A stretch of DNA of 41,447 nt from Clostridiaceae bacterium (GTDB taxonomy: Bacteria > Bacillota > Clostridia > Saccharofermentanales > DTU023). Numbering within the stretch: the stretch's first letter is position 1; each line of letters begins with the position of its first letter. Both the position numbers and the translations under genes were made by a program. The stretch is taken from the NCBI GenBank assembly GCA_012838355.1, contig DUPJ01000036.1:1-41447 (forward strand), written 5' to 3'. The notes under the pieces were generated by a model that saw only the letters and a list, made by a program, of their open reading frames with translations, was not told the DNA's origin and ran no database searches. Below are positions 34,042 to 41,122 of this stretch, in pieces.

Positions 34042-35496
34042 CTATTCGACATCTTGAGGCATCATGGCGTCGAGGGGGATACCGAGGTTCGTCAGAACTT
34101 GCATGAGCTTGCCGGCCACGTCTTCCGTGAAGAGAGCTTCCAAATCAGCCGAAGTTTTGAGTGGAATCCGTGTCTTCGTCATGAAGTCCGACGGGATCAC
34201 GACCTCAGCTTCATCAATTTCCGCAATGTCGAGCATTACGCTCACCATATTCTCGAGACCCACCTGACCGCTCAGCCGTCCGTCCGCCGCCTGTGTCATG
34301 TCGTACATGATCGTCAGCGGCTCCTGATATTCATCGTAGTTAATGACGACGCGCATATTGCCGAGCAGCATCATGCCGGCCGGACCGAACTCAACTGGCA
34401 GCATGTTGGCAAACTCTCCCAAAATGATCTCCTGAGCAGGAATCGTCATATCGGATGGTTCATGCATTTTCAAATTGAAGCTGCCGCTGATGCTTTCGTC
34501 GATCTCGGACGGGGCTGCATTCAGGAAGAACCGGATCGTCTCGTCGGTCGGTGCAACCATGCGCAGTTCCATCTCCAGATTCGTGTCCGTCATCAGTGCG
34601 AGTGCCGAGATAACGACAGGGCCAGCGTCTTCTTCTGTTTCGCCGGCATCCGGGGTGATGGTCATAATGAAGCCATGCTCGTCGCCGAATTCGTCAGTCA
34701 GCATCTCCGCCGTGAGCGTAATCCCTTTCAGGCCTTCGGCAGCGTTTTCCTTGATTTCGGTCATCATATCTGCCCAGGACGGCACGCCTTCATCCTCACT
34801 TAGCGGAACAATGACAGTCTCAAAGATCTCCAGCGCGCTTTCGTCAGTTTCGAGGTAGGTCGCGATGTCATTGACCATGGCAATCAGCTGCTCATCCTGA
34901 AAAGCATAACTGCTGCGGGACAGTTCAGCCGACAATGTGTCAATCGTGAATAGCTCGGGTGCAGAGACCGTCGCATCCGACATGTGCTGTTCGATGATGC
35001 CGGTGACACCTTCCAGCGTCGACATGAGCCCGGTCATATCAAAATCGGTGAGCCCATCCAGCGAAGGAATCGTTAAACCGTCAGCCTCGGATGCAAGCAT
35101 TTCGTTCATCAGCGACATCACGTCAACGTCGAGTACGCCGTCAAACAGAGCAGGGATGTCAAGCAGGAGCGTACCCGCTTCAGTCAGTGCACCAACGCTG
35201 AGGGCGACACCTTCAGCACCGGCCACATCAAGCTTGAAGTAATCGACAGGCGTTTCGCCCGTTCCGTCGTGCAGCTGCACAACACTAAACGACAAACTGT
35301 TCAGCAGAGACAGAATCTCTGCCGGCAAGACTGCCTGCAAATCCTCAGAAGCATTCAGTGAAAAATTGACTTCGGTTCCATTTTTCTCTGCTAGTTCGAA
35401 TGCTGATACTGGCGTCGCGACGACACCGAAGATCATGGCAAGTGCCAGAACCAGGACTGTGAATACTGTTGTTGTTTTCATGTTTTTGCTCTTCAT
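34042..35496 (-). CDS. Large secreted protein of unknown family
   Basis: A 484-residue exported protein I do not recognise. The N-terminus has lysines, a hydrophobic core (FTVLVLALAMIFGVVAT) and an AxA-type cleavage site after PVSA (about residue 32), without a lipobox cysteine. The mature protein is very acidic, rich in Met, Leu and Asp, and contains no cysteine that I can find. It has several beta-strand-like repeats and a central SGSFNLKM segment; the overall pattern recalls LolA-like or lipoprotein-carrier folds, but this is only an impression. Start ATG 35496 is six bases after AAAGGA; GTG 35511 and ATG 35502 are less well spaced. It stands alone, upstream of tRNA-Trp. Confidence 0.75.
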   Translation of the reverse strand: MKSKNMKTTTVFTVLVLALAMIFGVVATPVSAFELAEKNGTEVNFSLNASEDLQAVLPAEILSLLNSLSFSVVQLHDGTGETPVDYFKLDVAGAEGVALSVGALTEAGTLLLDIPALFDGVLDVDVMSLMNEMLASEADGLTIPSLDGLTDFDMTGLMSTLEGVTGIIEQHMSDATVSAPELFTIDTLSAELSRSSYAFQDEQLIAMVNDIATYLETDESALEIFETVIVPLSEDEGVPSWADMMTEIKENAAEGLKGITLTAEMLTDEFGDEHGFIMTITPDAGETEEDAGPVVISALALMTDTNLEMELRMVAPTDETIRFFLNAAPSEIDESISGSFNLKMHEPSDMTIPAQEIILGEFANMLPVEFGPAGMMLLGNMRVVINYDEYQEPLTIMYDMTQAADGRLSGQVGLENMVSVMLDIAEIDEAEVVIPSDFMTKTRIPLKTSADLEALFTEDVAGKLMQVLTNLGIPLDAMMPQDVE

Positions 35497-35576
35497 GTTC
35501 ATTCCTTTCACTTGTCACATTGGAGAGGGATACCGCATGACTGATACGGTGGTCAGCCAATCAGATCTACCAAATG

Positions 35577-35719: not shown

Positions 35720-35796
35720 CGGGGTGTAGCTCAGGTGGCTAGAGTGCTTGCTTGGGGTGCAAGAGGTCGCAAGTTCAAGTCTTGTCACTCCGACCA
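35720..35796 (+). tRNA. tRNA-Pro (anticodon GGG), CCA encoded
   Basis: Acceptor CGGGGTG pairs with CACTCCG; anticodon stem CTTGC/GCAAG around loop TTGGGGT, anticodon GGG; T loop TTCAAGT; discriminator A; CCA encoded. Reads CCC and CCU. Confidence 0.95.
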
Positions 35797-35799
35797 TTT

Positions 35800-35832
35800 A
35801 GCCTCAGGACCGTCAGGTTTTGAGGCTTTTTT
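35800..35832 (+). terminator. Terminator of tRNA-Pro
   Basis: Seven-base stem AGCCTCA / TGAGGCT with a 14-base loop, followed by TTTTT. Confidence 0.8.
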
Positions 35833-35879
35833 GTCTGGATTCGCAGTTTCCAAAAAACATTTATGGTTTTGAACGACGC

Positions 35880-35897
35880 GCATATCAGTAGATATGC
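35880..35897. promoter_or_regulatory. Inverted repeat 1 in the citrate synthase operon leader
   Basis: GCATATCAGTAGATATGC: perfect seven-base arms around AGTA. It lies upstream of the possible promoter and has no T tract, so it looks like a protein-binding site. Confidence 0.5.
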
Positions 35898-35903
35898 CTG
35901 AAT

Positions 35904-35933
35904 TTGTATAAAATAACGAACTGTGGCCATAAT
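35904..35933 (+). promoter_or_regulatory. Possible promoter of the citrate synthase operon
   Basis: TTGTAT (35904-35909), 18-base spacer, CATAAT (35928-35933). Each hexamer is a partial match. Its -10 overlaps inverted repeat 2, which would fit repression. Confidence 0.35.
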
Positions 35934-35944
35934 GCTTGCATTAT
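35929..35944. promoter_or_regulatory. Inverted repeat 2 in the citrate synthase operon leader
   Basis: ATAATGCTTGCATTAT: perfect seven-base arms around TT. A partial copy of the same half-site (AATGCATAAT) recurs at 35964-35973. Confidence 0.45.
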
Positions 35945-35972
35945 TTCCAGAAACAGTCATCCTAATGCATAA

Positions 35973-35990
35973 TTGTATACATGAATACAA
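35973..35990. promoter_or_regulatory. Candidate GntR/FCD operator
   Basis: TTGTATACATGAATACAA: perfect six-base outer arms TTGTAT/ATACAA around a CATG centre. GntR proteins of the FCD group bind short dyads of this kind, and an FCD regulator is encoded in the operon. The site directly precedes the ribosome binding site. Confidence 0.55.
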
Positions 35991-36004
35991 AGGAGACTGT
36001 TAAT

Positions 36005-37387
36005 ATGCTGGAGTTGTCCAAACACACCAATCTGCTGGAACAAAAAACGTACAATTACTCTCTGCAGGATATACGGGAACCAATGCTGTACCGAGATGTA
36101 TTTCCGTATTCTGAGGTGCCGAAGATTGCCTTTAACCATCGCCATGTGCCGATGAACATGCCTGATGAAATCTGGATCACCGACACGTCGTTCCGGGATG
36201 GACAGCAGTCGGTCGAACCGTATTCTGTTGAACAGATCGTGACGTTGTTCAAGCTTCTGTCAAAACTCGGCGGGCCGAACGGGCTGATCCGGCAGACGGA
36301 ATTTTTCATCTATAGCGAGAAAGATCGGGAAGCGCTGCGACGGTGTCAGGACCTTGGGCTGAGGTTTCCGGAGATCACAACCTGGATTCGTGCCACGGCT
36401 GAAGATTTTAAGCTGGTTCGCGATGCCGGCATAAGGGAAACAGGCATTCTCGTCAGTGCATCGGATTACCACATATTCAAGAAGATGGGGCTGACCAGAC
36501 GTCAGGCGGTTGACAAATATCTCGCGACGGTGTCGGCGGCATTTGAGCTCGGCATTGTCCCGCGCTGCCATCTTGAGGATATTACGCGCGCAGATTTCTA
36601 CGGATTTGTCGTCCCGTTCGTGCACGAATTGTCGGAGTTGTCCCGTCAGGCGAAAATTCCGGTAAAAATACGCGCCTGTGACACGTTGGGCTATGGCATA
36701 TCGTATCCGGGCTCAGCGCTGCCGCGCTCGGTTCAGGGGATCATATACGGCTTGAATCACTATTCGGAAATCCCCTCGGATATGCTCGAATGGCATGGCC
36801 ACAACGATTTTTACAAGTCGGTGACGAATGCGACGACTGCCTGGTTTTACGGAGCATCCGCAGTCAACTGCTCGATGCTTGGCATCGGCGAGCGCACGGG
36901 AAATGTGCCGCTCGAAGCCATGGTTATGGAATACGCAGCGCTCAAAGGTAATTTCGGCGGCATGGATCCTACTGTGATTACGGATATTGCCCGCTTTTTT
37001 AAACACGAGATCGGCTATCACATCCCGGCCAATACACCGTTTATCGGACGTGATTTCAATAAAACGCGCGCCGGCATTCATGCGGATGGCCTGCTTAAGG
37101 ATGAAGAGATCTACAATATATTTGACACGCGAGAGATTCTGGGACTCGCGCCCGGCGTGATGGTGGGCAAGGCATCCGGGCAGGCCGGCATTGCTTACTG
37201 GCTGAACGATTATTTCGAGCTTGATGCTGACTGCAGTGTGCAGAAACAGGATCCGCTGGTCCTTGGGTTGAAAACATGGATCGACCATGAGTACGAAGAC
37301 GGCCGGCAGACGTCCATTACGGCCGATGAGCTTCTGGAGCAGGTTCAAAGACTGGCCCCGGGACGCTTCGAGACGGGAGCATGCTAA
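36005..37387 (+). CDS. Probable Re-citrate synthase (isopropylmalate/homocitrate synthase family)
   Basis: A 460-residue DRE-TIM acyltransferase that probably condenses acetyl-CoA with oxaloacetate to citrate. The catalytic opening WITDTSFRDGQQSVEPY (about residues 56-72) is the family's metal- and base-bearing motif, and later HGHND supplies metal ligands (WHGHNDFYKS, near 262). LGGPNGLIRQTEFF is characteristic of the group related to the Clostridium kluyveri enzyme. It lacks a C-terminal LeuA regulatory domain, and no leu genes are near; instead aconitase and isocitrate dehydrogenase follow, which favours citrate over isopropylmalate or homocitrate. ATG 36005 is chosen because AAAGGAG stands nine bases upstream; ATG 35981 lies within the operator dyad. 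Substrate assignment is inference. Confidence 0.8.
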   Translation: MLELSKHTNLLEQKTYNYSLQDIREPMLYRDVFPYSEVPKIAFNHRHVPMNMPDEIWITDTSFRDGQQSVEPYSVEQIVTLFKLLSKLGGPNGLIRQTEFFIYSEKDREALRRCQDLGLRFPEITTWIRATAEDFKLVRDAGIRETGILVSASDYHIFKKMGLTRRQAVDKYLATVSAAFELGIVPRCHLEDITRADFYGFVVPFVHELSELSRQAKIPVKIRACDTLGYGISYPGSALPRSVQGIIYGLNHYSEIPSDMLEWHGHNDFYKSVTNATTAWFYGASAVNCSMLGIGERTGNVPLEAMVMEYAALKGNFGGMDPTVITDIARFFKHEIGYHIPANTPFIGRDFNKTRAGIHADGLLKDEEIYNIFDTREILGLAPGVMVGKASGQAGIAYWLNDYFELDADCSVQKQDPLVLGLKTWIDHEYEDGRQTSITADELLEQVQRLAPGRFETGAC

Positions 37388-38037
37388 TGAAAGACCGGAG
37401 GGTATCACTGGCCGATTTTGTTTACGAGCGCATTGAAGCGGACATTCTTGCCGAGTCTTACAAACCGGGGCAGGTGCTGACTGAACTTGCGGTGAGTGAC
37501 ACGCTGGAGGTGAGCCGGACGCCTGTCCGGGAAGCATTCCGGCGGTTGCAGCAGCAAGGTTATTTGAGCGAAACCGGCAAGGGGAGCGTCGTCGTTGGCA
37601 CAACACCGCGGGACATGATGGATATTTACGAAATTCGGCTTCGCACCGAGGGGCTGGCCACACGCTGGGCGGCCAAACGAATCACTGAGGACGGTTTGAG
37701 ACAACTCCGCGAGGCACTTGAACTGCAGGAGTTTTATACAGCCAAGGCCGATGCAGGTCATATACAGGAGCAGGATGCATCGTTTCACCGCCTGATCTTC
37801 CTGCAGTGCGGAAGTCCTGTTCTGGGCGATATGCTGACCGTGCTGCACCGCCGTATTCAGCGTTTCCGTCAGCAGAGCGTCAAGGACCATGCGCGTGCGG
37901 ATCTGGTGGTGGCTGAACACCGGGCCATTTTCAACGCGCTGGCTGCCGGCGATGCCGACGCGGCTGAACAACTGGCTCTGGCGCATGTGAAAAATGCAAG
38001 AGAACATATTGGTGCGGAGGAATGCGTATGGGCCTGA
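37387..38037 (+). CDS. GntR-family transcriptional regulator, FCD type
   Basis: A 216-residue regulator with an N-terminal winged helix (about 5-70; [20 protein letters not shown] then [13 protein letters not shown]) and a C-terminal all-helical FCD ligand-binding domain (about 80-205), with candidate metal ligands in DASFHRLIF and [14 protein letters not shown] regulators commonly sense organic acids, so citrate or a related acid is a reasonable guess. The start ATG 37387 overlaps the preceding stop by one base and follows GGGAG at seven bases; ATG 37381 is too close to that site. Being inside the operon, it probably regulates its own transcript through the dyads at 35880-35990. Confidence 0.88.
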
Positions 38038-39971
38038 CACTGGCGGAGAAAATTATCAAGGATCATCTCGTTTCGGGGGAGATAACGCGCGGACATGAAA
38101 TTGCGCTGAAAATCGATCAGACACTGACGCAGGATGCGACCGGCACCATGGCTTTCCTGGAATTTGAGGCCATGGGCATACCCCGTGTCAGAACGGAACT
38201 GAGCGTGGCCTATGTCGACCACAACATGCTGCAGGAAGGGTTTGAAAATGCAGACGACCACCGCTATCTGCAAAGTGCGGCAAAAAAGCATGGCATCTAT
38301 TTTTCGCGGCCTGGAAACGGCATCTGTCACCAGGTGCATCTGGAGCGCTTTGGACGACCCGGCAAGACGCTGCTCGGCTCCGACAGCCATACACCGACGG
38401 CCGGCGGTCTCGGCATGCTGGCCATCGGTGCCGGCGGCCTCGATGTCGCCGTTGCGATGGCGGGCGGCCCCTATTATCTGACGATGCCGCGCATCGTCAG
38501 GGTCAATCTGACAGGGACTCTGCAGCCGTTCGTTTCGGCGAAAGACATCGCCCTCGAAATGCTGCGCATCCTGACGGTCAAGGGCGGAGTCGGTGCCATC
38601 ATTGAATGGGGCGGAGACGGCGCCAGAGCGCTCACGGTGCCTGAGCGCGCCACCATCACCAACATGGGGGCCGAACTCGGCGCGACCTGTTCACTGTTTC
38701 CGTCTGATGCACGCACTTTGGAGTATCTGGCGGCTCAGGGGAGAGCCGGCGACTATGTGCCGCTTGAACCGGACAGCGATGCGGCATATGACGAGACGAT
38801 CGAAATAGATCTGACGCAGCTGCCGTCACTGATCGCCTGCCCGCACAGTCCCGACCATGTAGTTGACGTTCTGACGCTGACCGGCACGAAAGTCGATCAG
38901 GTCTGCATCGGTTCCTGCACCAATTCCTCGCTGGCTGATCTGGAGAAAACGGCTGCCCTGCTGAAGGGAAAACAGGTGCATCCGGACGTCAGTCTGGCCA
39001 TCTCACCGGGATCAAGGCAGGTGCTGACCATGCTGGCAGAATCCGGCGCGCTGGCGGATCTGCTGGCGGCCGGAGCCCGTATCCTGGAATGTGCCTGCGG
39101 GCCGTGCATCGGCATGGGATTTGCCCCAAATTCGGACGCAGTCAGCCTGCGCACGTTCAACCGGAATTTCCGCGGCCGGTGCGGTACGGAGAACGCGGGC
39201 GTATATCTGGTGTCACCTGAAGTTGCGGTGGCGGCGGCCATCTTTGGCACGATCCGTCACCCGCGCGATCTGGGTGCCATGCCGGCCATTGAACTGCCGC
39301 GCGTCTTTTGTGTCGACGACAGTCAGGTACTGGAACCCGCTGATCCTGCTGCGGCCGAATTCGTCCAAATTATGCGGGGGCCGAATATCGGACCGGTGCC
39401 GACTGCTTCGCCGCTCGCTGACTTGCTTGCAGCTCCCGTGCTCCTGAAAACAGGCGACAACGTGACGACCGACCAGATTATGCCGGCCGGTGCGAAAGTG
39501 CTGCCCTTCCGTTCGAATATTCCGAAACTGGCTCATTTCTGCTTTGAATCGACGGACAGGACATTTGCGGACCGTGCCCGGGCTGCCGGCAGCGGCATTA
39601 TTGTGGGCGGCGACAACTACGGGCAGGGATCCTCCCGCGAGCATGCCGCACTCGTGCCGCTCTATCTTGGCATCCGCGCCGTGATCGCCCGCAGTTTCGC
39701 CCGTATCCATGCGGCCAATCTTGTAAATGCGGGGATCCTGCCGCTCACATTCACAGACGGAAACGACTACGATGCAGTCGCCCGGGATGACAGCGTCACC
39801 TTGTCGTCGATTCATGACGGTCTGGCCGGCGGCCGGGTGATGGCGACGATCCAAAAGCCAGGCGGCGACAGCACGATTATACCCCTGACCTGTTCATTGA
39901 CACAGCGTCAGCAGGCCATTCTTCTGGCCGGCGGTCTGCTCGCATTCACGAAACAGGAGGCCGCCAAATGA
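38028..39971 (+). CDS. acnA: Aconitate hydratase
   Basis: Iron-sulfur enzyme that interconverts citrate and isocitrate. The 647-residue protein belongs to the shorter aconitases of about 640-650 residues found in Clostridia, not the 900-residue AcnA of Escherichia coli. Cluster cysteines appear in CIGSCTNSS (about residue 293) and [11 protein letters not shown] (about 355). The N-terminal [18 protein letters not shown] and the C-terminal swivel domain (about 470-640; [14 protein letters not shown]) are typical. Start ATG 38028 is seven bases after GGAGG; ATG 38022 is too close. Homoaconitase is a related alternative, but the neighbours favour aconitase. It overlaps gntR by ten bases and the next gene by four. 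Confidence 0.92.
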
Positions 39972-41122
39972 CGGAATCGATTCGGCTTGCCACACTTCAT
40001 TTTCAAGTGCTCCTGGAGGAGCAGCTGGCGCGTGCCGCAGCCATTGAGCAGCGCAGCGAGCGCGTCGACTATGCCAGTCTGCGACCGCTTGTGATCGGTG
40101 TTATCGGCGGAGACGGCATCGGCCCGATCATCGTCAAAGAGGCGCGGCGCCTGCTTGATGTTCTCTTGAAAAACGAACTTGCCTCCGGCGATATCGAGAT
40201 CAGAGACATCGTGGGACTGACACTGGAGCGGCGGAAGGCACTCGGTCAGTCGATTCCGGAGGATATACTGGCGGCTGTAAAGCGCTGTCACGTTTTGCTG
40301 AAGGGGCCAACCGAGACGCCGAAGGGCGGTACGATGGAAAGTGCGAACGTGACGCTGAGGCGTGAACTCGATCTGTACGCAAATGTCCGTCCGGTCAGGG
40401 TGCCTGAGGAAGGCATCGACTGGACCTTTTTCCGCGAAAACACGGAGGGTGAATATGTGCTGGGAAGTGCCGGCATTGCCATTCCCGGCAAACTGGCCGT
40501 CGACTTCAAAGTGACGACGGATGCCGGCACAGCGCGCATAGCGCGTGCGGCGCTGGAATATGCCCGGGCGAACGGCAGGACACAGGTGGCCGTTGTGACC
40601 AAAGCCAACATCATGAAGAAGACGGACGGTCAATTTTCGCGCATCGTGCACGAGACGGCAGCCGACTATCCTGAGATCGAAGTGACGGACTGGTATGTCG
40701 ACATCATGGCGGCCAACCTGATCAACCGGGATATTCGCAGCCGTTTTCAGGTATTCGTCATGCCGAATCTTTACGGCGACATTCTGACTGACGAAGCCGC
40801 CCAGATTCAGGGCGGTGTCGGTACAGCCGGCAGCGCCAATCTGGGCGATGGCTACGCCATGTTTGAAGCGATTCACGGGTCGGCTCCGCGCCTGATCGCT
40901 GACGGTCTGGCAGCGTACTGCAATCCGGCGAGCCTTTTTCGCGCCGTCGAAATGATGCTCCGGCATATCGGCAGGACTAAGGCGGCTCTGCGACTGGCGC
41001 AGGCCCTTGACGTCTGCCTCGAGAGCGAAAGGCGTCTCGTGGTCAGCGGCGACAGGAACGGTGCGACGTGCGCCGAGTTTTCGGACTATGTGCTCCGCAC
41101 ACTCTCGAACGAACCCGGTTAG
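39968..41122 (+). CDS. Isocitrate dehydrogenase, probably NAD-dependent
   Basis: Oxidatively decarboxylates isocitrate to 2-oxoglutarate. The 384-residue protein of the isocitrate/isopropylmalate dehydrogenase family has [12 protein letters not shown] near residue 48, the substrate loop [11 protein letters not shown] with [10 protein letters not shown] (about 119-142), [13 protein letters not shown], and [19 protein letters not shown]. The cofactor loop [20 protein letters not shown] lacks the basic residues usual for NADP, so NAD is more likely. An extra 35-residue N-terminal helix precedes the Rossmann core. It starts four bases inside acnA and closes the operon, giving a direct route from acetyl-CoA to 2-oxoglutarate and glutamate. 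Confidence 0.88.

Follow-up and report, generated by a model that had tools for sequence, protein, structure and literature searches.

A conserved palindrome over the promoter of a clostridial operon with a candidate Re-type citrate synthase, a predicted operator of the operon's own GntR regulator

The window analysed here, a stretch of 41,447 nucleotides from a Clostridiaceae bacterium (contig DUPJ01000036.1 of assembly GCA_012838355.1), contains near its end an operon for a candidate Re-type citrate synthase, a GntR-family regulator, an aconitase and an isocitrate dehydrogenase, preceded by a leader in which a first-pass annotation had marked three inverted repeats ('dyads'). The features of the operon and its leader are as follows:

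35720-35796: tRNA-Pro, upstream of the leader
35800-35833, plus strand: terminator after tRNA-Pro, marking the upstream limit of the leader
35880-35897, no strand: first dyad, GCATATCAGTAGATATGC, for which a function is unsupported
35924-35949, no strand: second dyad in its extended form (core 35929-35944, ATAATGCTTGCATTAT), a candidate activator site that overlaps the -35 candidate
35944-35949, plus strand: -35 candidate TTTCCA, weak, 18 bases before the -10 box
35966-35989, plus strand: predicted GntR operator of 24 bp, TGCATAATTGTATACATGAATACA, with its axis at 35977.5 and 20 of 24 positions matching the consensus, from footprinting
35968-35973, plus strand: putative -10 box CATAAT, lying within the operator and of register B (below), aligned with TATAAT/TATTAT of loci L058, L059 and L061
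35973-35990, plus strand: third dyad as first drawn, TTGTATACATGAATACAA, an off-axis reading of the operator
35990-35995, plus strand: Shine-Dalgarno sequence AAGGAG, serving the ATG at 36005
36005-37387, plus strand: candidate Re-type citrate synthase (HMGL-like), from Pfam and NCBIfam matches
37381-38037, plus strand: GntR/FCD regulator, second gene of the operon
38022-39971, plus strand: aconitase
39968-41122, plus strand: isocitrate dehydrogenase

Because a tRNA gene and its terminator lie upstream, the operon seems to possess a promoter of its own, in the leader from about position 35834 onward. Its first product is an HMGL-like protein that hit 18 NCBIfam synthase models, each time with a score under the model's cut-off. 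The Si-type citrate synthase family (PF00285), matched in 13 of 14 control genomes, has no match in the window's genome (94% complete), and the candidate Re-citrate synthase shares its operon with aconitase and isocitrate dehydrogenase. Farther upstream, on the minus strand, lies an ORF of 489 amino acids (34042-35511) that begins, by eye, like a signal peptide and gave no Pfam or NCBIfam match.

The second gene encodes a protein with both domains of a GntR/FCD regulator (PF00392, 56.8 bits against a cut-off of 27; PF07729, 101 bits against 24.3). In an alignment of 22 rows, its presumed DNA-contacting residues (E35, R46, T47 and R50) and presumed metal ligands (D132, H136, H180 and H202, assigned by motif) are invariant or at least 90% conserved. 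A structural model, built from a two-sequence alignment and weak in the DNA-binding domain, places six helices after residue 75 with a mean pLDDT of 61.5. Regulators of the FCD type recognize short palindromes whose arms carry GT and AC, a description that the operon's site fits. Searches of the PDB returned relatives of the protein, none of which supplied a ligand; the best match among solved structures was to 7xp0/7xp1, which we take to be PmiR, a protein that (by the title of the paper describing it) reportedly senses 2-methylisocitrate and that is presumably identical to PA0797 (PrpR). In a tree of GntR proteins, for which 59 distinct rows were kept of 79 (with the true GntR of L194, at 42.5% identity, used in place of the wrong reading frame, at 22%, that had entered alignment A1), the window's protein groups with those of L061, G559, G368 (family f67), G466 (f53) and G276 (f57) with support of 98/98; in all members of this group the promoter is of register B and the GntR gene directly follows citrate synthase.

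The three dyads had been described as crowding 111 bases of the leader, and all three sequences are indeed present there. By criteria that were chosen after the dyads had been seen (arms of 7 paired perfectly, 8 of 9 or 10 of 12), three dyad axes were observed in the 111 bases against 0.35 expected from dinucleotide shuffles, at least three were reached in 0.5% of 2000 such shuffles, and when the window was covered by 1118 tiles of 111 nt at a step of 37, no tile held more than two. The dyads are, however, unequal: the third alone marks a conserved site, most probably the operator at which the operon's own GntR binds. Such an eye-catching cluster can comprise one real site and two doubtful ones.

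Phylogenetic footprinting upstream of homologous operons, a check that the first-pass annotation had proposed, was performed on 98 citrate synthase upstream regions, the window's included, drawn from its order and class (the class provided 84 citrate synthase matches besides the window, of which the 29 best and a further 40 were examined, 69 in all), and it located a conserved site at the third dyad. Across the class, a 24-bp palindrome, TGTATAATTGTATACAATTATACA, is found in front of Re-type citrate synthase genes, alongside homologues of the operon's GntR/FCD protein; its consensus was read by eye from relatives before scoring, start codons were picked by script, and ORFs in relatives' loci and around genome matches were called mechanically. 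A score of at least 18 of 24, reached by 0.26% of 1960 shuffles, was found in 39 of 42 class loci with GntR in the genome versus 3 of 27 without. When linkage was assigned by hand from match coordinates at E 1e-30 (for G341 from a separate look-up), these scores proved to come from 30 of 31 loci with a linked GntR and 9 of 11 with GntR elsewhere in the genome. The exceptions are thus two of the 11 genomes with an unlinked GntR, where the site is missing before citrate synthase, and one of the 31 linked loci, which scores 16. Within the order, a score of at least 18 was found in three of four linked loci (all four, the window included, score at least 17) and in none of 25 loci without GntR. The association of site and GntR corresponds to a Fisher value of 3e-12 with genomes treated as independent although they are related, and because of that relatedness the value makes the evidence look stronger than it is. 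A count by family is fairer: 20 of the 33 families sampled have the site, and one conserved site tied to one regulator on that scale amounts to a directly testable switch.

The window's own copy of the site was located with a profile built from 39 other sites, in which the core TGTATACA stands at 0.96 to 0.98 per position. The best position is 35966, with a score of 24.8 (the 39 sites themselves score between 19.2 and 43.6), and the next non-overlapping position in the 41 kb scores -3.3. The nearest relative with the operon is L061 (MAG Clostridiaceae bacterium isolate AS10tlH2TH_388; 80% for citrate synthase and 68% for GntR), in which the first three genes stand in the window's order on a contig that ends in aconitase and on which no tRNA was found. 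Because the window's copy departs from the 24-bp consensus at four positions, and that of L061 at seven, the operators of the window's family have evidently drifted, and binding of GntR may be weaker there.

Genome-wide searches return the same site. The pattern TRTAATTGTATACAWTWATACA, loosened with the window's copy in view, has at up to three mismatches a single match in the window's genome, at 35966-35989. Across the window's family a looser pattern matches somewhere in 18 of 38 genomes at up to three mismatches, the window's match being the best, with one mismatch; the site before citrate synthase in G059 falls outside this set. A stricter 20-bp core, TATAATTGTATACAATTATA, occurs with at most two mismatches once in 14 of 18 genomes and twice in two more, and in these 16 genomes every match precedes citrate synthase or aconitase (the aconitase of G222 being assigned by position); the core has no such match in G000 or G059 and misses the sites of the window and L061. 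The same-genus genome G001 gave neither a citrate synthase hit (threshold E 1e-100) nor a GntR hit (E 0.001), and a site of this kind is likewise missing from it.

Other targets of the site were sought at 28 chosen loci where GntR lies away from Re-citrate synthase. The site is present in 18 of them, before aconitase (8), gntR (9) or the isocitrate dehydrogenase gene (1). Seven of the ten loci without it are cut inside aconitase or isocitrate dehydrogenase, with the operon start outside the stretch (in one of the seven, L197 of G222, the site lies just beyond), and the remaining three (L206, L207 and L208) lack it although the operon start is within the stretch. When neighbours of GntR were scanned, seven of eight were Si-type citrate synthases (L208, L210, L211, L212, L213, L215 and L216), and the site is carried by all of these loci except L208 (6 of 7). 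Judged from these gene neighbourhoods, the regulator seems to track the pathway rather than one type of citrate synthase. The conservation of one site with one regulator points to Re- or Si-type citrate synthase, aconitase and isocitrate dehydrogenase being controlled together.

The position of the palindrome relative to promoter boxes was read in 47 sites scoring at least 17, taking the better promoter reading for each. In 31 of these (register A), the right half of the palindrome holds TACAAT-like bases with a -35 element 17 or 18 bases ahead of them, although one of them, L124, has no credible -35; in the other 16 (register B), including the window, the -10 box lies in the left half. The two registers are 10 bp apart, about one helical turn. 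In the window, the predicted operator overlies the putative -10 box and borders directly on the Shine-Dalgarno sequence, transcription would begin near 35980 with a leader of about 25 nt, and the predicted promoter is weak. The second dyad, which had been thought to overlap a possible -10 box, overlaps instead (in its extended form) the -35 candidate, and not the conserved -10 box. At the level of sequence, the third site stands on the promoter of the regulator's own operon, as autoregulation would have it.

With a probability of roughly 0.8, we regard 35966-35989 as the operator of the FCD-type GntR encoded second in the operon, which would repress the oxidative branch to 2-oxoglutarate together with its own gene. 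A GntR dimer (or a pair of dimers) bound at this position would cover both the -10 box and the transcription start, and would repress citrate synthase, gntR, aconitase and isocitrate dehydrogenase together. An acid of the pathway, lodged beside the presumed metal in the FCD pocket, would raise or lower the affinity for DNA, and this acid-tuned binding would set the flow into 2-oxoglutarate and glutamate. Binding, repression, autoregulation and an effector are what we infer for GntR from the sequences compared, and the choice of repression over activation is suggested by the position of the site alone. The operon's own GntR had already been named as the likely regulator, a prediction that the footprinting favours.

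The alternative that survives best, although we consider it unlikely, is that a second regulator, acting as an activator to offset the weak -35 element, binds at the second dyad, so that the promoter integrates two signals. This dyad has perfect 7-bp arms around a 2-bp spacer (10 of 12 paired when extended), is centred about 43 bases before the inferred start at a promoter with a weak -35, and has more near matches in the genome than a reversed-pattern control (9 vs 2). A single counterpart with one mismatch, TTAATGCAGGCATTAT, was found among 97 upstream regions, about 136 bases before the citrate synthase start in L154 (G206, another family), where none was expected in 60 rounds of shuffles, and L058 and L059 possess, farther upstream than the GntR site, a second repeat of another kind. 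However, the dyad is absent (best 3 mismatches) in L061, the one near relative with the operon at hand; it has no second exact copy in the genome; and of five other near sites that were read (out of eight), four lie inside ORFs and one just past a stop codon. In form (ATAA-N8-TTAT) it loosely resembles the ATAA-N7-TTAT box of CcpC, the LysR-type protein that regulates citrate synthase and aconitase in Bacillus; the joint control of these two enzymes is a likeness between CcpC and the system predicted here, from which CcpC differs in protein family and operator.

The first dyad has no counterpart under three mismatches in the 97 other citrate synthase upstream regions. One other exact copy exists in the genome, inside an ORF that resembles (by eye) phosphoglucosamine mutase, and near matches with at most two mismatches number 13 against none for a reversed-pattern control. 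Despite that excess, the dyad was rejected as a genome-wide regulatory motif: all four of the sites that were read, out of 12 others, lie within ORFs. On present evidence, the first and second dyads stand outside the GntR mechanism, and with one lacking counterparts in relatives and the other missing in L061, the original suggestion that the leader integrates three separate signals is not supported.

A nitrogen-type second regulator had been suggested as well, and a candidate site for one does exist before citrate synthase in other families, but not in the window. The half-sites TGCAAG and CTTGCA (at most one mismatch in all) are spaced by exactly 14 bases in 29 of the 98 upstream regions; any other spacing from 0 to 40 occurs in at most one locus each, and a reversed control gave none at 14. 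The 29 loci represent four families, 22 of them being species of one genus (f2 g26) and the others belonging to f3, f4 and f12; they include L050, L054, L058, L059, L076, L084, L086 and L033 together with 21 other f2 g26 loci. Exact copies of the repeat stand before a glutamate synthase gene (L167:1501, GATase_2) and before a substrate-binding protein (L176:1501, by eye), and another lies inside an ORF (L162). Genome-wide, the repeat is enriched in G047, G058, G175, G176 and G195, and is not enriched in g26 (7 to 9 sites vs 7 to 13 for the control). It is a candidate operator of a glutamate or nitrogen regulator, and in f4 g14, where it stands beside the GntR site, a two-signal promoter may exist. 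The window was considered as a further member of this group and rejected: no matching half-site lies 14 bases upstream of its CTTGCA at 35935-35940, and its genome contains four near matches to the repeat versus ten for the control.

A more elaborate model, to which we attach distinctly low odds, would treat the 24-bp operator as a double site (TGTA-N4-TGTA-TACA-N4-TACA) for two GntR dimers, with a -10 box in each half; the promoter could then move in evolution by one helical turn, from one register to the other, without any displacement of the operator, and the lineage-specific dyad at 35924-35949 would add an activator in the window. We think it improbable that GntR binds the site but activates, or that the site is kept for another FCD regulator: three of the 27 class loci without a close GntR do carry the site (G413, G479 and G456, from families in which other members have GntR), but the site overlaps the -10 box in both registers, and site and GntR co-occur.

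An action of the dyads as RNA, in which hairpins of a long leader would control translation or termination, is less probable again. A stretch of 197 nt that takes in the leader and the gene start folds better than shuffled sequences (z -2.56; 3 of 200 as good), with the Shine-Dalgarno sequence paired, but with a -10 box at 35968 most of that leader would go untranscribed from the corresponding promoter, and other promoters conserve the third site as a palindrome in DNA that lies over the -10 box. A known RNA family in the leader was sought in Rfam and rejected, tRNAs being the only matches. A further inverted repeat (AACAGTC at 35952-35958 and GACTGTT at 35995-36001, within complementary arms spanning 35952-35963 and 35991-36001) would hide the Shine-Dalgarno sequence in read-through transcripts, and not in an mRNA that starts near 35980.

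The initial description of the third dyad as a GntR/FCD-type site holds in that relatives conserve a palindrome there, and fails in its axis, which was drawn at 35981.5 where the conserved one is 35977.5. As drawn, the dyad sets TTGTAT, from the inner left arm, against ATACAA, from the outer right one, an off-axis pairing that is possible because TGTA and TACA units repeat every 8 bases. That it functions in this form is very improbable: it is 8/9 paired and the conserved bases of the operator include its outer half, ATACA, but the profile that gives 24.8 at the conserved axis gives -39.6 at the drawn one, and the relatives are symmetric about the former.

Two FCD regulators offer parallels to the predicted GntR switch. 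According to the available part of PMC7797058, Atu1419 of Agrobacterium fabrum, which belongs to the VanR group (defined by an effector domain without the extra helix of FadR), is an autoregulated local repressor of hydroxycinnamate degradation; it shares with the clostridial system the core TGTATACA, a palindrome that overlaps the -10 box and, by motif, the same kinds of DNA-contact residues and a three-histidine metal site. Its crystals held citrate in the pocket, citrate did not release it from DNA, and its operator is one of 10 bp, ATGTATACAT, whereas the clostridial site is conserved over 24 bp (same part of PMC7797058). PA0797 (PrpR) of Pseudomonas aeruginosa, in the portion of PMC9765439 at hand, is the GntR/FCD repressor of the methylcitrate operon; it is likewise an FCD-type repressor in an operon with an enzyme of the citrate synthase type, and differs in serving another pathway.

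In the open-licence literature, we found no report of clostridial GntR control of a glutamate-feeding oxidative half-cycle, nor of TTGTATACAA in connection with GntR. The core TGTATACA together with GntR led to PMC7797058 alone, and 'Re-citrate synthase' together with GntR to PMC6469976 alone, which in its available part concerns Atribacteria and an allantoinase operon; the available part of PMC12016533 makes no mention of GntR. The site could also aid the recognition of misannotated Re-citrate synthases. Two smaller features of the sites in relatives may be recorded: in 11 of 44 sites another TACA falls exactly at +17 to +20, and in family f25 (L068, L069, L071 and L072) extra TGTAT/ATACA half-sites are visible by eye downstream of the GntR operator.
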